32,595 nt of DNA, taken from NCBI GenBank assembly GCA_026982075.1, contig JALSHU010000014.1:1-32595 (forward strand), read 5' to 3'. The stretch is from Sulfurovum sp. GTDB taxonomy: Bacteria > Campylobacterota > Campylobacteria > Campylobacterales > Sulfurovaceae. The position numbers were made by a program, and so were the translations under genes. Under the pieces are notes generated by a model. It saw only the letters and a list, made by a program, of their open reading frames with translations. It ran no database searches and was not told where the DNA came from. Below, one piece after another: positions 1 through 13,035 of this stretch (position 1 is the stretch's first letter; each line of letters begins with the position of its first letter).

Positions 1-120
1 CGTTCTACAGTTTGTTTAAAGTTAAAAGAGAGTGGGGCATGGGTATATGCGTATATTTTTATATGATTCATAAGAGGGATTATAGCAGAGTTTGTATAGG
101 CATGTACCTATACGTGCATT

Positions 121-324
121 TTATTTAATTAAAAATGAAATCTTTGCATTGATTCTGTATTTGACGATTTTATCACCGTCTACTTTGGCAGACATATTAG
201 TAATATTAATACCTTTAATACCTTTGACACTTTTGCTTGCTGCTTTTACAGCATTTGCTGCTGCATCTTCCCATGACTTTTCAGACTGCGCTAGAACTTC
301 GATAACTTTTACTACTTTTGACAT
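121..324 (-). CDS. Dodecin family flavin-binding protein
   Basis: 67 aa, MSKVVKVIEVLAQSEKSWEDAAANAVKAASKSVKGIKGINITNMSAKVDG..., typical dodecin size and pattern; upstream RBS and TATAAT on the minus strand. Confidence 0.88.
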   Translation of the reverse strand: MSKVVKVIEVLAQSEKSWEDAAANAVKAASKSVKGIKGINITNMSAKVDGDKIVKYRINAKISFLIK

Positions 325-381
325 ATCATTTCCTTTCTACATTATATAGTTAGATGATAGTTAAAAAATGTGTATGAAGGA

Positions 382-1185
382 TTAACCACATTTCCCCGGA
401 GCACATTTCATTCCATTGAATTTACCAGTCATTGGGCCTTCTTGGATACTGCTTTCATGCATTTTATCCATCATGGCTTTCATCTCTTCTGGATAGGCTA
501 CAAAATTGTAGCCTTTATAGAGGGTAATGACACCATAGAGAATGACAAGAAGTGCGGCAAGTTTCATCATAATACCACGTAGATTTCCTTTTTGAAGAAA
601 TTTGGTGAGGAAGCCTAAAAAGAAAAGAGCAGGGATGGTAGCTAAACCAAAAGTAGCCATCACCAATGCACCACCTAAAGGTGTGGCTGTACTTGCAGCA
701 AATATAGCAAAGGAGTAGACAAGTCCACAAGGGATAATACCATTAAGCATACCAAGCAGAAAAAAACTTGCATAACTCTTGTTTGTAATAAGTTTTCTAA
801 AACTCTTTTGGTACCAGCTATATTTGGATATGGACAATTCTGATGAGTTTAAGAACTTTAAATTGCCCAGAAGTGAAAGCCCTGCTAAAATCATCAGAAT
901 ACCTGTCAAAAGAAAGAGTAGCCCTTTGGTTGTAGGCGTAAAAGCGATAACCTTGCCAATAGTACCAAAAATAGTACCCAAGATAGTATATGTGGCAACA
1001 CGTCCAAAATTATATGCCAAATGGGCTGATACTTGGTGAGCGTAGCTGGATTTTTGATTGATTTTATTCGATGTATACGCTACAACGATACCACCACACA
1101 TACCTATACAATGTCCAACACTCCCTAAAAAAGCAGTTGTTAGTATAATGACTAGATCTATATTCCCCATACGCATTTCCTTCAT
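382..1185 (-). CDS. Sulfite exporter TauE/SafE-like (urease accessory/cytochrome biogenesis type) membrane protein with C-terminal MKCAPGKCG tag
   Basis: Multi-TM protein with GHCIGMCGG motif near N-terminus and conserved NGIIPCGLVY; ends ...NGMKCAPGKCG. Start may be a few codons downstream (MRMG/MGN). Confidence 0.8.
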   Translation of the reverse strand: MKEMRMGNIDLVIILTTAFLGSVGHCIGMCGGIVVAYTSNKINQKSSYAHQVSAHLAYNFGRVATYTILGTIFGTIGKVIAFTPTTKGLLFLLTGILMILAGLSLLGNLKFLNSSELSISKYSWYQKSFRKLITNKSYASFFLLGMLNGIIPCGLVYSFAIFAASTATPLGGALVMATFGLATIPALFFLGFLTKFLQKGNLRGIMMKLAALLVILYGVITLYKGYNFVAYPEEMKAMMDKMHESSIQEGPMTGKFNGMKCAPGKCG

Positions 1186-3273: not shown

Positions 3274-3945
3274 ATGGGAAGTATATTATTATTAGAAGAT
3301 GATGTAAACCTTAATGAGACAGTCACTGAGTTTTTGGAAGATGAAGGGCATACTGTCATCTCTGTATATGATGGATATGAAGCACAGGAAAAACTATATG
3401 AGAGCAAGTATGATTTGTTGCTTTTAGATGTAAACACCCCAGGTATCAATGGTTTTGACTTACTTAAACAAGCAAGAGAAAGTGATGTTTTGGCACCTGC
3501 GATTTTTATTACTTCTTTAGATTCTGTGGAGGATTTGGAAAAAGGGTTTGAGAGTGGTTGTGATGACTATATACGTAAACCTTTTGTACTTAAAGAACTT
3601 AAAATTAGAGTTGAGACTCTTTTAAAACGTGGTTTTTTTCATAAATCTAAAGAGATGATTCAAATCTCAGATAGGATTTCCTACCATATAGAAAATAATG
3701 AAATCATTGTTGAGGATAAGACAATCACACTGGGGCATAAAGAGTCCAAACTTTTGAAGTTATTTATGAAAAATGATGGTACTGTCATAGCACATGAACG
3801 TATTTATGAACATTTGTGGGATTATGATGAAGAGCCAAGTGATACTGCACTTCGTACATATATTAAAAATTTACGTAAAATTATAGGCAAGGAAAAAATT
3901 GTTAGTATCAAAAAACAAGGCTATAAATTCTCTTCTAAAGAGTGA
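3274..3945 (+). CDS. OmpR-family response regulator
   Basis: Receiver domain (LLLEDDVNLNETV, LLLDVNTPGINGFDLL, KPF) plus winged helix; starts directly after trx stop codon. Confidence 0.92.
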   Translation: MGSILLLEDDVNLNETVTEFLEDEGHTVISVYDGYEAQEKLYESKYDLLLLDVNTPGINGFDLLKQARESDVLAPAIFITSLDSVEDLEKGFESGCDDYIRKPFVLKELKIRVETLLKRGFFHKSKEMIQISDRISYHIENNEIIVEDKTITLGHKESKLLKLFMKNDGTVIAHERIYEHLWDYDEEPSDTALRTYIKNLRKIIGKEKIVSIKKQGYKFSSKE

Positions 3946-5086
3946 GAAGAAGTCACTTTTTAGATTTTTAACACTTTATGTAGCGATGATTGTATTTATG
4001 ATACTATTGCTTTGCGCTTATTATTATCAAACGCAAGAAAAACTCATGCTTTCATCCCAAAGAGCTACACTTTTTAAATATGCGTTTATTCATGCAAAAA
4101 GATTAAAAGTTTTACATCATTTTTTTGATGAGAGAGTAAAATATCCTAGAGATCCCCGTTTCAAATCTGCTATATATGATGTAGAGTACAAAGAGATTTT
4201 TTCTTTATTGGAAAATAAAAATATACGCTTTGATAAAGAAATATATATCGTAGATAATCATATACATTTTTTAAAAAGTTTAGATGACTATTATTTAGGT
4301 ACAAAATATATTGTGATAGAAGTACTAGATGATGGTATATGGAGAGAAATTATATGGAAAAACATTATAGGCTATGGGATTATTGCTTTTTTTGTTTTTC
4401 TTCTTTTTGGACTCTATCTTGCAAAACTTTTCTTAAAACCCATGCGTGATTCTATCGTCTTGCTTGATAGGTTTATTAAAGATACAACACACGAACTTAA
4501 TACCCCTTTATCTGCCATCTTAGCCAATATAGAGATGATGGATACCGACGTAATGGTAGAGAAAAACAGATCAAAACTCAAGCGTATCAATATCGCCGCA
4601 AAAACTGTATCCATCCTTTATAAAGACTTAACGTATCTTACCCTTGAACAGGAAAAAGAAAACCATGATGAAATGATAGATCTAAAAGCTTTAATAAAAA
4701 ATAGAACTGAATATTTTGATATCTTAGTACAATCCAAACAATTGGAATATAAGTTAGATTTAGAAGAAGCTACAATGTTTGTGGATAAGCGAAAATTTAC
4801 CAGAGTGATTGATAATTTGATTTCTAATGCCATTAAATACAATAAGCGAGCTGGCTTACTCATTATCACATTGCGTCCAGGTGAACTGGCTATTGCGGAT
4901 ACAGGTATTGGTATAGAAGAGAATCAGATACCTTTTATTTTTGATCGCTATATACGGTTTAATCAGAGTGAAGGAGGCTTTGGTGTGGGGTTAAGTATAG
5001 TGAAAAAAATTCTTGATGAATATAATATTAAAATTGACATTATTTCGAAAGTAAATAAAGGAACAAAAATGGTGTTGAAATGGTAA
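3899..5086 (+). CDS. Membrane sensor histidine kinase
   Basis: Two TM segments, H-box FIKDTTHELNTPLSAI, N-box NLISNAIKYN, G-boxes IADTGIGIEE / GFGVGLSIVKK; TTG start overlapping the regulator, exact start uncertain. Confidence 0.9.
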   Translation: MLVSKNKAINSLLKSEKKSLFRFLTLYVAMIVFMILLLCAYYYQTQEKLMLSSQRATLFKYAFIHAKRLKVLHHFFDERVKYPRDPRFKSAIYDVEYKEIFSLLENKNIRFDKEIYIVDNHIHFLKSLDDYYLGTKYIVIEVLDDGIWREIIWKNIIGYGIIAFFVFLLFGLYLAKLFLKPMRDSIVLLDRFIKDTTHELNTPLSAILANIEMMDTDVMVEKNRSKLKRINIAAKTVSILYKDLTYLTLEQEKENHDEMIDLKALIKNRTEYFDILVQSKQLEYKLDLEEATMFVDKRKFTRVIDNLISNAIKYNKRAGLLIITLRPGELAIADTGIGIEENQIPFIFDRYIRFNQSEGGFGVGLSIVKKILDEYNIKIDIISKVNKGTKMVLKW

Positions 5087-5478: not shown

Positions 5479-5799
5479 ATGAAAAGAATAATGAGTATAT
5501 TAGCCTTGGTTGTGTGCATAATGGTTAGCGTGCCTGTGACTGCTGAAGCGGGAGCAAAAAAAGGTCAAAAAATTTTTAAAAAGAAGTTTCGGAAAAAGTG
5601 TGGATTTTCTGGAGTGCGTTTTGCAAGACATCATACGCAAGGAGAGTGGGAAGAGATTTATGATGATGATAGATTTCCTGAAGAAGCCAAAAAGATTTGT
5701 CCACGCTTAAAAGTAAATAAGATTAAAGAAAGCTGGTGGGAACATGTGTATGAATTTTCATATATCTATGCAAAAGATGGAAAAATACCAAAATGTTAA
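5479..5799 (+). CDS. Secreted cytochrome-c-like protein lacking CxxCH (paralog 1 of 3)
   Basis: Signal peptide, KKGQKIFKKKFRKKCGFSGVRFA...WEEI...KKICPRL...IPKC; similar to 5914-6228 and 6736-7056. Confidence 0.75.
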   Translation: MKRIMSILALVVCIMVSVPVTAEAGAKKGQKIFKKKFRKKCGFSGVRFARHHTQGEWEEIYDDDRFPEEAKKICPRLKVNKIKESWWEHVYEFSYIYAKDGKIPKC

Positions 5800-5913: not shown

Positions 5914-6228
5914 ATGAATAAAATAACAAAATTAACGGTTTCTACATTACTTGGTTTAGCAGTTCTATCGACAACAGCTACAGCCGATGTTAAAAAAGGG
6001 CAAAAGATTTATCTTAAAAAGCTCAAAGCCAAGTGTGGTTTTTCTGGCGCAAAATTTGCACATAAACATACTCAAGATGAGTGGGAAGCGATAAAAGAAG
6101 CTGGAAAATTTGGAGAAGAAGTCACAAAAATCTGTCCTAAAGCAACACTCAAACCTAAATATGAAAACGATGTTTATGATTTTGCGTATGAGTATGCTAA
6201 AGATTCAGGAAATGTACCTTCTTGTTAA
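5914..6228 (+). CDS. Secreted cytochrome-c-like protein lacking CxxCH (paralog 2 of 3)
   Basis: Signal peptide, KKGQKIYLKKLKAKCGFSGAKFA...WEAI...TKICPKA...VPSC. Confidence 0.75.
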   Translation: MNKITKLTVSTLLGLAVLSTTATADVKKGQKIYLKKLKAKCGFSGAKFAHKHTQDEWEAIKEAGKFGEEVTKICPKATLKPKYENDVYDFAYEYAKDSGNVPSC

Positions 6229-6735: not shown

Positions 6736-7056
6736 ATGAAAAATATGATTAAAATAGCATTGGTTTCACTACTTGGCTTAACATTATTGACAATAAGCAT
6801 TGATGCAGCCAGTATTAATAAGGGTCAAAAGATTTTTAGTAAAAAACTGAAAGGGGCATGTGGTTTTACTGGTGCTAAGTTTGCAGCAAGTTTTAAACAA
6901 AAAGAGTGGGAAGAGATTTTTAAATCTGGCAAAATGGAAGAAGAGGCAAGAAAACTATGTCCAAATATCCAAGTATGGGAAAAGAAATGGGAAGAAAACC
7001 TATTTGAATTTGCTTACGAATATGGGGCAGATTCTGGAAATGAACCTGCTTGTTAA
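6736..7056 (+). CDS. Secreted cytochrome-c-like protein lacking CxxCH (paralog 3 of 3)
   Basis: Signal peptide, NKGQKIFSKKLKGACGFTGAKFA...WEEI...RKLCPNI...EPAC. Confidence 0.75.
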   Translation: MKNMIKIALVSLLGLTLLTISIDAASINKGQKIFSKKLKGACGFTGAKFAASFKQKEWEEIFKSGKMEEEARKLCPNIQVWEKKWEENLFEFAYEYGADSGNEPAC

Positions 7057-7096: not shown

Positions 7097-7456
7097 TTAC
7101 TTGCTGCTTCCACATTTTCCTGCTTCACATTTCATAGCTTCATTCTTTTTTGTATTGTCACTAGAACATTTGGTGCTTAGTCTGCCTGTTTTGTCTACAC
7201 GTACACAATCATACAGACTTTTTGTAGTAGTTGCTTTTAGAACACAGTCACGTCTACTGTCCTCTTTTTTTAGTTGATTGAGGATATTCATTTTCTTTTT
7301 TACCAATACAGCTGAACCATCTACCATGGAAGCACCACATTTTCCCGGCCCACACTTCATACCACCTTCTGTAAGTGATTTTGTTTTCTCTTTTTCATTA
7401 CAGCCTGTGAGTAGTGTTAGTACTATCAGTGTAGTTGCTAATATTGTTGTTTTCAT
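7097..7456 (-). CDS. Small lipoprotein with two MKCxxGKCG motifs, last gene of the Cus-type operon
   Basis: Lipobox LLTGC, then GGMKCGPGKCGAS and C-terminal MKCEAGKCGSSK; start overlaps cusA stop by 4 nt. Confidence 0.75.
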   Translation of the reverse strand: MKTTILATTLIVLTLLTGCNEKEKTKSLTEGGMKCGPGKCGASMVDGSAVLVKKKMNILNQLKKEDSRRDCVLKATTTKSLYDCVRVDKTGRLSTKCSSDNTKKNEAMKCEAGKCGSSK

Positions 7457-10400
7457 TTTGTTTCCTTCATTAATGTATTGAGTTGATGCTTTTCATAGAG
7501 CTCAAAGAATATAGGTATGAGTACCAAACTAAGTATAGCAGAAGTGACCACACCTCCTATCATGGGTGCAGCGATACGTTGCATGACTTCTGAGCCTACA
7601 CCATGTGTATACATGATAGGAAGGAGACCCGCCAAGATAGCAAATACCGTCATGAGTTTGGGACGTACCCTTTGTACCGCTCCTACATAGATAGCATCAT
7701 TGAGGTGCTCAATATTAAAGTTGTCTCCTTCTTTTCTTCGTGCATCATCTACAGATTCTTGTAGGTAGACTATCATCACTATGGCAGTTTCAGCTGCAAC
7801 TCCCAGTAAAGCAAGAAAACCAACAATAACAGCGATACTCATGTTAAAGTCTAGTATATCTATATAAATTAATCCACCAAGCAGTGCAAAAGGTAAGGTA
7901 AAGAAGACAATGAGTGTGGGTATAGCCAGTTTAAGCGCAAAATATATGAGTAGTAAAATGACAAGTAATACTGTAGGTACTATCCATATGATCTTTTGCA
8001 TAGCAGATTCAAGATATTCTGACTGTCCCGCCCATTCAATATAATAACCAGTAGGAAGTTTTAAGTTTTCTAGTACTTTCATCGCCTCTTCTTTATACTT
8101 TGTTGCAGATATACCCATTTGTGGAGTGATATAGACAAAGGTTACAGGGGTTGCCATTTCTGATTTTATAACAGAACCACTTTCTCTGTATGCTACAGTA
8201 GCAAATGTAGAAAGGGGTACAAACCCTAGTGGTGTTTTTACTTGAATATTACGTATATCATCTAGATTACGTCTTTCTTCTTCTTCAAAACGTAAAGCAA
8301 TAGGGTAACGTTCCAGTCCTTTATACATGGTAGTAATTTTTTTACCTCCAATAGCAGCAGAGGTGTACTCGTGTATAAGGTCTTTACTAATATTATAACG
8401 TTGTAAAGCTTCTGTGTCTATGTCGATATCTATAAAGAAACCAGCACTTGCTTGATCGGAGAAAACAGACTGAGTGATTTTTAAATCACGTAATTTTCTT
8501 TCTATTTCAAGGGCTACTTTTTGAAGACCTGCTGCATCTTTACCATAGAGTTTTATCCCAATAGGAGTACGAATACCAGAAAGGAGCATATCTATCCGTC
8601 CACGGATAGGATATGTCCATGAATTAACGAGCCCTGGTACTTGTAAAGCTTTCTCCATTTCTGCCATAAGTTTTTCATGCGTCATACCTTCTCTCCATTC
8701 ACTTTGTGGCTTGAAAGTAATAATGGTTTCAAGCATTCCCAATGGTGCAGGGTCAGTTGCTGAGTTTGCACGTCCACCTTTTCCAAATACAGTGTCTACT
8801 TCTGGAAAAGATTTGAGTATTTTATCGGTTTTTTGTGTGAGAGCTTTACTTTGATCCACGGAGATACCATAAGGTGTTACAGGCATATACATGACAGTTT
8901 GTTCATTGAGCATAGGCATAAATTCCCAATTTAGATTTTTATAAAGAGGCACAGCATAAGCAAGTGCACCAACAGAGAGTAAAATAACAAGATATTTATA
9001 TTTCAATCCATACACGAGAAGTGGATGATAAAGCCAAATGAAAAAACGGTTTAACGGATTTTTGGATTCAGGGATGATTTTACCCCTAACAAAAAATACC
9101 ATGAGTACAGGTACCAGTGTGACAGAGAGTAATGCTCCAGCAGTCATAGCAAATGTTTTCGTGAAGGCTAGAGGGGTAAAGAGTAATCCCTCCTGTCCCG
9201 AAAGTGCAAAGATAGGTAAAAATGATACCACAACTAAGGCTAACGCAAAAAAGATAGGGCGACCTACAAGTTGTGATGAGGCTAAAATAACTGCAATACG
9301 CTCCGTATTTGTAAGTTCTCTACCTTTGATTTCTTCTTCTTTATGTATAAATTTATGTGCATTTTCAATCATGACAATAGAGGCATCTACCATTGCACCT
9401 ATAGCAATGGCTATCCCACCAAGAGACATTATATTTGAGCCAATCCCAAACAGTTTCATAAGTAGAAAGGGTAAGGCTATGGTGAGTGGTAATACAATGA
9501 GCATAATGAGTGTAGATCTAAAATGCATTAAAAATAGGCCAATAATAATAATAACAATAATACTCTCTTCGACCAGTGTGACTTCAAGTGTTCGAACTGC
9601 TTTTTCGATGAGACCAGAACGGTCATAGGTGGTCACTACATCTACGCCTTCTACATGAAGTTCAGACATTTTCTTTTTGATACGTTTAATGGCAGCATAG
9701 ACATCTTCACCATAACGTATCATGACAATACCACCTACTACTTCACCTTCTCCATTAAGGTCAGCCATACCGCGACGTTCAGCTGGAACTAGTTCTACTC
9801 GTCCTAACTGTTCAAGGGTAATAGGAATACCTCCTTTAGTTGTGACGACAAGTTTTCGTATCTCATCTAGGTTTTTGATATATCCTTTAGCTTGAACCAT
9901 CCATTCGTAGCCATTTTGGATGACAATACGCCCACCCGTGTCATTGTTGTTATTTTTTAAAACTTTACTTACATCCTTAATAGATAGATTATATTGTATC
10001 AGGGCATCATTGTTAATGGTTATTTGATAAGTGGGTACAAACCCACCAATACTAGCTACCTCACTGACACCATCTACTCCCATCAGGGCATATTTATAAT
10101 AGTAGTCTTGTATGGTTCGTAACTCATCTAATGTTTTGGTTTTAGATGTCAATGCATATTCATAAGCCCATCCCACGCCAGATGCATCTGGACCGAGTGT
10201 TACTTCCATATTTGGAGGAAGTTGACTTTGTACAGATGCTAGTTGCTCTAATACACGGCTTCTTGCCCAATAGAGATCTGTACCTTCTTTAAAAATAATA
10301 TAGATTAATGCAGTTTCATAGGTAGAAAATCCACGTACAGTCTCAATATTTGATGTAGTAAGAAACTGGGATACTAAAGGGTAGGTTCCTTGATCTTCTA

Positions 10401-10581
10401 TAATTTCAGGACTTTGTCCTTTCCATGTAATCTGGACGATGACTTGTGGAGGAGAAAGGTCAGGTAGGGCATCCAAAGGTGTGTTTTTCATAGCCCATAT
10501 GGAACCTAAGATAATAAAAAGTGTCATCATCAGGACAACAAAACGGTTTCGTATACTAAATGCTATAAGGTTTTCTATCAT
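7453..10581 (-). CDS. cusA: Heavy-metal RND efflux inner-membrane pump, CusA type (Cu/Ag)
   Basis: 1042 aa; LDALPDLSPPQVIVQ, FMPMLNEQTVMYMPVTPYGIS, TDPAPLGMLETIITFKP, RIDMLLSGIRTPIGIKLYG as in CusA/HME-RND. Confidence 0.92.
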   Translation of the reverse strand: MIENLIAFSIRNRFVVLMMTLFIILGSIWAMKNTPLDALPDLSPPQVIVQITWKGQSPEIIEDQGTYPLVSQFLTTSNIETVRGFSTYETALIYIIFKEGTDLYWARSRVLEQLASVQSQLPPNMEVTLGPDASGVGWAYEYALTSKTKTLDELRTIQDYYYKYALMGVDGVSEVASIGGFVPTYQITINNDALIQYNLSIKDVSKVLKNNNNDTGGRIVIQNGYEWMVQAKGYIKNLDEIRKLVVTTKGGIPITLEQLGRVELVPAERRGMADLNGEGEVVGGIVMIRYGEDVYAAIKRIKKKMSELHVEGVDVVTTYDRSGLIEKAVRTLEVTLVEESIIVIIIIGLFLMHFRSTLIMLIVLPLTIALPFLLMKLFGIGSNIMSLGGIAIAIGAMVDASIVMIENAHKFIHKEEEIKGRELTNTERIAVILASSQLVGRPIFFALALVVVSFLPIFALSGQEGLLFTPLAFTKTFAMTAGALLSVTLVPVLMVFFVRGKIIPESKNPLNRFFIWLYHPLLVYGLKYKYLVILLSVGALAYAVPLYKNLNWEFMPMLNEQTVMYMPVTPYGISVDQSKALTQKTDKILKSFPEVDTVFGKGGRANSATDPAPLGMLETIITFKPQSEWREGMTHEKLMAEMEKALQVPGLVNSWTYPIRGRIDMLLSGIRTPIGIKLYGKDAAGLQKVALEIERKLRDLKITQSVFSDQASAGFFIDIDIDTEALQRYNISKDLIHEYTSAAIGGKKITTMYKGLERYPIALRFEEEERRNLDDIRNIQVKTPLGFVPLSTFATVAYRESGSVIKSEMATPVTFVYITPQMGISATKYKEEAMKVLENLKLPTGYYIEWAGQSEYLESAMQKIIWIVPTVLLVILLLIYFALKLAIPTLIVFFTLPFALLGGLIYIDILDFNMSIAVIVGFLALLGVAAETAIVMIVYLQESVDDARRKEGDNFNIEHLNDAIYVGAVQRVRPKLMTVFAILAGLLPIMYTHGVGSEVMQRIAAPMIGGVVTSAILSLVLIPIFFELYEKHQLNTLMKETK

Positions 10582-10590
10582 TTTGTTTTC

Positions 10591-11739
10591 CTAGTATATT
10601 GAATTGATTTGTGCATCAGAATCCATCATAAAGAGGGCATTATTGACTACATTGTCACCTAATTTTAAACCGCTAAGGACTTCATAATGTTTATTATCTA
10701 AAGGTCTTAGGTCTATTGCCATAGGTTCATACTCACCTTGAAAGTCAGTAGCTAGAAAAGCGTACCAAGTACCATTTTTACGTATAGCAGCTGTTCTAGG
10801 AATGACAATACGTCGTTTATTGTCTGCTTTAGCATGTACTTTTGCATACATGCCTGGTTTAAGAATGCCTGAGGGATTGTCTATACTAAGACGTAATGTT
10901 GCAGTGGCTTCTTTTGTATCTAACATAGGGTATAGCAGTAATTTTTCTGCATTGAACTTTGTTTCAATTCCTTTAACGTTTACTTCAAAGTTTTTTAATT
11001 TCGCTACATTGGGGAGTTCATCTTGAAAAAGTTTTGCTTCCATCCATACCTTGTCTAGATTCACAATCTGAAAGAGTCTCTTTTTTGAAGTAAAAGAGGC
11101 ACCTTCATTGACATTTTTTTCAAATACCCATCCTGAAATAGGTGCATAGACAGTTGTATAAGCATCTGTATGACGCTCTTTTTTGATCGCTTGTATTTCT
11201 TTCTCACTCACACCTAAGAGTTTGAGTTTAATTTCAGCACTTTTCAACATTTCTGGCATTGACATTTTTGCATGGTAGTTTAATGAGTTCAGGTAATCCT
11301 GCTTTGCTTTATAGACTTCGGGAGAATATACTTTTACTAAAGGTTCACCTTTTTTTACTTTTTTAAAGAGTGTATCTGCATAAAGGTTTACAACAAATCC
11401 TGAATACCATGTAAGCACATCTACAATGGATGAATCCTGGGCAACGATGTATCCATAGTTTTCTTGTGATTTTGCACTATTAAGCTCACTAACTTGCACA
11501 GTTCGTACATTAAAAAGTTGCTCAATAGTTGGTCTATTTTGTTTGGTATGTCTTTTGTTAGACTCCTTTAAAGGAGTATCTTTTGCAGGTATAGGTTCTT
11601 TTTTTGTAGGTATCTTTTTTTCGTTTCCACTGTTTCCTGTTGAACATTTTCCTGCTTCACACTTCATGGTATTTTCGGCAAACAGAAAAGGTGTTACTAG
11701 AAAAGATGATAGTGTTAATAGTGTGATGTATTTAAACAT
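10591..11739 (-). CDS. cusB: RND efflux membrane fusion protein, CusB type, with N-terminal MKCEAGKCS tag
   Basis: Signal peptide, MFP lipoyl/barrel-sandwich patterns (VYAPISGWVFEKNVNEGASFTSKKRLFQIVNLDKVWMEAKL), adjacent to cusA. Confidence 0.87.
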   Translation of the reverse strand: MFKYITLLTLSSFLVTPFLFAENTMKCEAGKCSTGNSGNEKKIPTKKEPIPAKDTPLKESNKRHTKQNRPTIEQLFNVRTVQVSELNSAKSQENYGYIVAQDSSIVDVLTWYSGFVVNLYADTLFKKVKKGEPLVKVYSPEVYKAKQDYLNSLNYHAKMSMPEMLKSAEIKLKLLGVSEKEIQAIKKERHTDAYTTVYAPISGWVFEKNVNEGASFTSKKRLFQIVNLDKVWMEAKLFQDELPNVAKLKNFEVNVKGIETKFNAEKLLLYPMLDTKEATATLRLSIDNPSGILKPGMYAKVHAKADNKRRIVIPRTAAIRKNGTWYAFLATDFQGEYEPMAIDLRPLDNKHYEVLSGLKLGDNVVNNALFMMDSDAQINSIY

Positions 11740-12932
11740 TATAATTCTCCTGTGAGTGATTTAAGTCTGGCTTGTGTTCTAAAATATTCTGCTTTTATAG
11801 ATACACTCTCTTCTTCTAAGTCAAGTTTTTGTTCTAATAAGTTTGTGTATGCAAAGAGATCTCCCCCCTGTTGGATACTTGCCTGTGTCAGTTCAAACAT
11901 GTGTTCAAGCTGTGGTAAAGTTTCTTTTTTCAATATATTATATATTGTATACGCTTCTATGAGTTTTGCATACATGGTTTCAATATCACTTTGCAGGGAT
12001 GATTTATAATCCAAAGAAGCACTAGCCGCTGCCAAAGCTTCTTTATGTGCAGCTTCAGTTTTAAGTTCTTCACTCCCATACAGGGGGATAGACGCACCTA
12101 TTGTAATACTGGCATAGTCATTAAATTCTGCACGGTTAAAATAACCTAATTTGACATATGGGTCAGGTGTTTTATCCAAGTTTTGTATGTCTCTATTTGC
12201 CCAGGCAACATCTTTTTGAGAGAGAGTCATTTGATAGATAGGATTATTATCAAGTTTGGAAAGGTAATAATGTAACTGTTTAGGTTTAGTCATTTTCATA
12301 CTACTTGAAATAGTATGTACTTTATGTTGTACGAGATATTTTAGTTTTGCCTTTTGACTCTCTAATAATGATTTATAATTTGCTGCTTTTATTTGAACTT
12401 TTGTCAAGAGTAGGCTAGCATTCATACTACTGGTATGGCTCTTACTTTGCGTAGAAGCATAAGAGTTATAAAGGTCAATATTTTGTTTTGTAACCTCGAT
12501 ATACTGATTGACTATACGTATACGTTCTTCTATTTCTTTAATGGTATATACTGTCATACGTATCTCTTCTGCAAGTTTTATTTTAGCTGCTGTATAAGAG
12601 TTGAAAATCACATTTTTCTGTGCTTGGGTATATTTTTTTCGAGCATCTAATTTACCAAACCATGGAAACTTTTGTTTAAAATTGATTGACTGATATTGCA
12701 TGGGTTCAAGATCTCTGCGAGAAAAGTTTTCAAATTGCATATCGTTAATGCTAAAAGACAAGTCAGGGTTGTCAAAATTTTGAGAAAGTGAAATTTTTTC
12801 ATCCATGGATGAGAGTCGTTTCTCAATACTGTGAAGAGAGGGATGTGATTCTATTCCTTTTCTGATAAGTTGTTGTATGTTTTCTGCATGGATTATAGTC
12901 ATGGAGACTAGTATCAGAAGTATGATACGCAT
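11739..12932 (-). CDS. TolC/CusC-type outer-membrane efflux protein
   Basis: Signal peptide MRIILLILVSMTIIHA, OEP pattern; AAGGAAG RBS supports start at 12932 rather than the 12965 ORF start. Confidence 0.85.
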   Translation of the reverse strand: MRIILLILVSMTIIHAENIQQLIRKGIESHPSLHSIEKRLSSMDEKISLSQNFDNPDLSFSINDMQFENFSRRDLEPMQYQSINFKQKFPWFGKLDARKKYTQAQKNVIFNSYTAAKIKLAEEIRMTVYTIKEIEERIRIVNQYIEVTKQNIDLYNSYASTQSKSHTSSMNASLLLTKVQIKAANYKSLLESQKAKLKYLVQHKVHTISSSMKMTKPKQLHYYLSKLDNNPIYQMTLSQKDVAWANRDIQNLDKTPDPYVKLGYFNRAEFNDYASITIGASIPLYGSEELKTEAAHKEALAAASASLDYKSSLQSDIETMYAKLIEAYTIYNILKKETLPQLEHMFELTQASIQQGGDLFAYTNLLEQKLDLEEESVSIKAEYFRTQARLKSLTGEL

Positions 12933-13035
12933 ATTTCTTCCTTGATGTTTATATTTATGGAACATTTTACAATAAAAATTGTGTATGTTTCGTGCACATA
13001 AAGAAGTATTTATTTTATTAAATCAATAGATTTAC

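Follow-up and report, generated by a model that had tools for sequence, protein, structure and literature searches.

A lipoprotein with two K-C-x-x-G-K-C units encoded at the end of a Sulfurovum cusCBA operon: a candidate metal carrier in the place of CusF

Introduction

By which route could copper or silver reach a CusCBA pump in a bacterium without CusF? This question is raised by the window analyzed here (the whole stretch of 32,595 nucleotides) from a deep-sea Sulfurovum bacterium, in which a small lipoprotein gene with two Cys-containing tags closes the cus operon. The KCxxGKCG unit and its link to copper are already known: the Cys residues of the KCGEGKCG repeat of HvfA are converted to thiooxazoles via HvfB/HvfC (PMC13419390), and EGKCG precursors without an MNIO enzyme are rare, being present in 67 of the 2583 genomes of an MNIO-substrate survey (PMC12452194). 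In a literature search that covered mainly papers available without subscription, we found neither a description of the unit serving, free of MNIO, as a terminal tag of many exported proteins nor a paper describing such tags in Sulfurovum or Sulfurimonas. The original prediction held that the lipoprotein replaces CusF, either as a thiolate metal scavenger or as an MNIO (DUF692) substrate, and that homologs would be found beside metal efflux genes with their motif Cys residues conserved.

Results

The lipoprotein gene and its product

The genes of the operon are arranged on the minus strand in the order cusC-cusB-cusA-lipoprotein, and the relevant features are as follows:

11739-12965, minus strand: cusC, outer-membrane channel (PF02321)
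10591-11739, minus strand: cusB, adaptor (PF16576; closest PDB entries are CusB structures)
7453-10581, minus strand: cusA, RND pump of the Cu(I)/Ag(I) type (E. coli CusA is the top PDB hit, E 8e-276)
7097-7456, minus strand: 119-aa lipoprotein, last gene of the cusCBA operon (ORF with ATG start)
7400-7411, minus strand: lipobox L-T-G-C with Cys19 (sequence; Cys kept in 30/30 orthologs)
7334-7360, minus strand: tag 1, MKCGPGKCG, residues 33-41 (sequence and Cys conservation)
7205-7318, minus strand: small core predicted to be helical, residues 47-84, with Cys71 and Cys84 (AlphaFold2 and Cys conservation)
7109-7135, minus strand: tag 2, MKCEAGKCG, residues 108-116 (sequence; intact in 28/30 orthologs)

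The three Met residues at positions 573, 623 and 672 of E. coli CusA, which bind Cu(I)/Ag(I) there, are aligned and identical in the CusA of the window. The ATG of the lipoprotein gene overlaps the TGA of cusA by 4 nt, as originally described, with both genes on the minus strand. A lipoprotein signal with a lipobox was recognized by inspection and conservation, which marks the product as a bacterial lipoprotein. The two MKCxxGKCG motifs and the intervening Cys residues had also been read correctly; outside the tags and the lipobox, Cys is found at positions 71, 84 and 97. The AlphaFold2 model is of low confidence overall (mean pLDDT 65), with core helices predicted at residues 47-61, 69-74 and 78-84 (pLDDT approximately 84-89) and low values in the remainder, and the tag-bearing ends on either side of the core are probably disordered. 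No relative of the core was detected by Pfam, PDB sequence or fold search, the fold matches (E > 5) being meaningless.

Among the 175 family genomes searched, clear homologs were found in approximately 44 of the 78 genus genomes and in a few genomes of sister genera; about two fifths of the genus genomes, some of which are incomplete, have no clear homolog. The homologs occur throughout Sulfurovum and also in Sulfurimonas, including the cultured S. indica, at approximately 40-50% identity. The lipobox Cys, both Cys residues of tag 1, Cys71 and Cys84 are invariant in 30 orthologs, and the C-terminal tag is damaged or lost in two of these. In a set of 71 homologs, the tag 1 Cys residues are kept in 70-71 sequences (Sulfurimonas included), Cys71 and Cys84 are both kept in 69, and nearly all sequences have one to seven tag copies. 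The expected conservation of the motif Cys residues was thus observed.

Genomic neighborhood and absence of CusF

The cusA gene is located directly upstream of the lipoprotein gene in 29 of the 30 fetched orthologs and upstream at 60 of 73 named loci (within approximately 420 nt at 53), and many of the loci without cusA upstream are cut by a contig end. In some Sulfurimonas loci where cusA is not adjacent, the lipoprotein gene follows a P-type ATPase gene (L117, L123 and L135) or is accompanied by copper-oxidase/CopB-like genes (L136, L138 and L139); in L119 and L133, also without directly adjacent cusA, it is preceded by a gene for a small HMA-like protein. The P-type ATPase (copper-translocating) and multicopper oxidase of L117 score as copper families in NCBIfam, and the labels at the other loci are based on DKTGT/CPC motifs and resemblance to the L117 genes. 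The anticipated co-occurrence with Cu/Ag efflux genes is supported. Locus L117 additionally encodes, at 72-812 (minus strand) inside its copper-resistance cluster, a MerT-HMA fusion with a C-terminal KCGGGKCGAGKCG-type tag.

The other side of the lipoprotein gene contains a conserved pair of genes:

3274-5086, plus strand: candidate regulatory pair of an OmpR-type response regulator and a histidine kinase (Pfam)

This two-component system is found near the lipoprotein gene in most Sulfurovum loci, in synteny with the cus cluster, and is a candidate metal sensor that may regulate cus. Three paralogous exported proteins (5479-5799, 5914-6228 and 6736-7056, plus strand) share the pattern KGQKI..K.CGF.G..FA..HTQ.EW...KICP...C and have no match in Pfam; a copy is also located close to the lipoprotein gene at most Sulfurovum loci, and these proteins are possibly cytochrome-derived and haem-less. 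One contig labelled Lutibacter (L080), probably misbinned, has a lipoprotein and two-component locus that resembles those of Sulfurovum (78-86% identity).

A search for the CusF domain (PF11604) gave a signal in two control genomes but in none of the 175 family genomes. The lipoprotein itself has neither PF11604 nor any other Pfam match. The absence of PF11604 from the family supports the proposal that the lipoprotein replaces CusF.

The same tag on CusB and a SafE-like protein

At the DNA level, the window has four matches to the K-C-x-x-G-K-C pattern, compared with 0.01 expected from shuffles. Two sites belong to the lipoprotein, and the other two, overlooked in the original prediction, are located on CusB (N-terminal) and on a membrane protein (C-terminal), so the motif is not special to the lipoprotein:

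11644-11667, minus strand: MKCEAGKC tag at the mature N-terminus of CusB (pattern search)
382-1185, minus strand: DsbD_2/SafE-like six-helix membrane protein (PF13386, E 6e-51)
385-411, minus strand: C-terminal MKCAPGKCG tag of the SafE-like protein (pattern search)

In all 22 full-length CusB proteins of the Sulfurovum type, the tag lies just after the signal peptide, and it usually holds the only two Cys residues of the protein. CusB of the Sulfurimonas type has no tag and no Cys and begins directly at the conserved domain, which indicates that the tag goes with an N-terminal extension of one clade. In E. coli, CusB receives metal from CusF at its N-terminus via Met residues. For the SafE-like protein, the positive-inside charge count places the tagged C-tail in the periplasm.

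Distribution of the tag in the genome and genus

The source genome contains 12 motif sites (none in the reversed control), and the 78 genus genomes contain 648 pattern sites (12 in the reversed control). Together with the counts in the window, these numbers led us to reject a chance origin of the motif as a whole. One site of the source genome (C96) and one site in genome G064 were regarded as chance occurrences because they lie outside any in-frame ORF of listed size. Every in-frame copy read, in stretches from five genomes, sits in an exported-looking protein, and most carriers have the tag close to one of their two termini. The carriers comprise CusB, the lipoprotein, SafE-like proteins, two NosL types, cytochromes c, a 59-aa membrane peptide, HvfA-like proteins, small lipoproteins and Spy-like proteins (a label given by inspection, with no Pfam match). 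A strong N-terminal hydrophobic segment was found in 30 of 34 tagged ORFs compared with 101 of 255 others (p 5e-8, which is optimistic because orthologs from related genomes were counted separately). NosL-family proteins with the tag right after the signal peptide are encoded at L051 3194-3931 and L068 2485-3009, the latter assignment being just below the Pfam cut-off.

The tags might be docking or redox motifs instead of primary metal sites, forming CxxxxC disulfides on which the SafE/DsbD_2-like protein would act; a tagged DsbD_2 relative is present in the same window, and cytochromes c and Spy-like proteins also carry tags. We consider this explanation improbable, given how strongly the lipoprotein is associated with copper export genes and the tags with CusB and NosL; moreover, the KCxxGKCG unit of HvfA binds copper, although there after modification (PMC13419390).

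MNIO enzymes and hvf-like loci

As the original prediction stated, no MNIO gene is present in the window, and the same holds for the source genome, which is 92% complete. MNIO (PF05114) was detected in none of the 78 genus genomes, several of which are closed and 99-100% complete, and DUF2063 was likewise detected in none, positive controls being detected in each of these searches. These results bear directly on the idea of a RiPP-like substrate whose tag Cys residues are turned by an MNIO into copper-binding thiooxazoles, as in HvfA/oxazolin. The idea draws on the spacing of KCxxGKCG, which equals that of the KCGEGKCG repeat, on the retention of HvfX (the DoxX-like component of hvf operons) in 59 of the 78 Sulfurovum genomes, beside an HvfA-like protein where inspected, and on MNIO-bearing relatives, in which the motif is directly upstream of MNIO. 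In a phylum sample of 397 genomes, MNIO scored above the cut-off in 25, the motif occurred in 92 and both occurred in 13, and in 12 of these 13 the motif is directly beside MNIO; it also adjoins MNIO in G019 and G059, which are exceptions within the family. Nevertheless, the joint absence of PF05114 and DUF2063 leaves the MNIO-substrate part of the original prediction unsupported; it was rejected for the genus, and we regard it as extremely unlikely for this lipoprotein.

Where inspected, the neighbors of HvfX are an HvfA-like protein, small Cys-rich lipoproteins and a FeThRed_B-rhodanese protein, with no hvfB or hvfC. A conserved MNIO-less hvf-like locus (L013 4674-7133; also L050, L060 and L143-L153) encodes one or more Cys-rich lipoproteins, HvfX, an HvfA-like protein, a coiled lipoprotein and a FeThRed_B-rhodanese fusion, and is divergent from an oxidoreductase pair. 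Another, unrecognized enzyme might modify the tag Cys residues of all tagged proteins, with participation of HvfX or a neighbor such as the FeThRed_B-rhodanese protein. The conserved co-location of HvfA-like protein, HvfX, lipoprotein and ferredoxin-thioredoxin-reductase/rhodanese fusion is in favor of such a modifier, as is the median number of motif sites per genome (10 with HvfX vs 2 without, a comparison confounded by HvfA-like sites and genome completeness). On the other hand, inspection revealed no signal peptide in the FeThRed_B-rhodanese protein, and we think a non-MNIO modifier unlikely. A broader version, in which KCxxGKC would be a genus-wide modification or handling code read by non-MNIO machinery (HvfX and a conserved neighbor) on about ten kinds of exported proteins, including CusB and NosL, in a shared copper relay, also appears to us to have little chance of being right.

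Discussion

Our analysis leans toward the view that the lipoprotein is a lipid-anchored thiolate carrier of Cu(I)/Ag(I) in the place of CusF and part of an MNIO-independent set of tagged proteins. We infer the identity of the metal, the binding by thiolates, the direction of transfer and the lack of modification. The protein would be a membrane-anchored periplasmic metal carrier doing the job of CusF. Its flexible K-C-x-x-G-K-C units (two here and one to seven in relatives) would coordinate Cu(I), with Ag(I) as a probable second ligand-bound metal, via unmodified Cys thiolates, and the helical core with its two conserved Cys residues would space them. Metal picked up in the periplasm might then be transferred, through exchange of ligands, to the N-terminus of CusB with its matching tag, which might gate or feed CusA. 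Since Sulfurimonas CusB has no tag, such a tag-to-tag handoff cannot be the whole story; there, the pump itself or other partners may receive metal from the lipoprotein. Together, the tagged exported proteins of the genus could form an MNIO-independent copper-handling network. Several points speak against the carrier: an obvious role in copper handling is not apparent for the tagged cytochromes c and Spy-like proteins, periplasmic thiols may be oxidized to disulfides, the core matches no recognized fold, the structural model is of low confidence, and about two fifths of the genus genomes, some of them incomplete, have no clear homolog.

The missing receiving tag on Sulfurimonas CusB would also suit a periplasmic sponge, that is, a protein that only stores or scavenges metal with no transfer to CusB, and a variable copy number of the tag is what would be expected of a buffer. 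The tight coupling to the pump gene and the matching tag on Sulfurovum CusB argue against a sponge, which seems rather unlikely to us.

It is worth noting that a whole genus lacks MNIO and yet has many dispersed copies of the unit on CusB, NosL and other exported proteins. The genus thus offers a way to test whether the Cys unit can act as a copper ligand in its bare form, whether copper binding by the bare unit predates thiooxazole chemistry, and how metal is supplied to CusCBA pumps without CusF.

Comparison with known systems

The carrier proposed here resembles HvfA/oxazolin (Buf_EGKCG) in being a small exported protein with a KCxxGKCG unit of the same spacing as KCGEGKCG, in a genus that has retained an HvfX relative. 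It differs in that this genus has neither MNIO nor DUF2063 and in that the lipoprotein is lipid-anchored, possesses a predicted helical core and is encoded next to cusCBA; for the KCGExKCG repeat, its score against NCBIfam NF050137 is 16.5 bits, below the cut-off of 19.5, and NF050188 gave no match. Like CusF, the lipoprotein is small, periplasmic and encoded with cusCBA; unlike CusF, it is lipid-anchored and Cys-based and has no PF11604 domain. Finally, the tag of Sulfurovum CusB occupies a flexible N-terminal position corresponding to the metal-acceptor site of E. coli CusB, with the Cys pair of KCxxGKC instead of Met residues.
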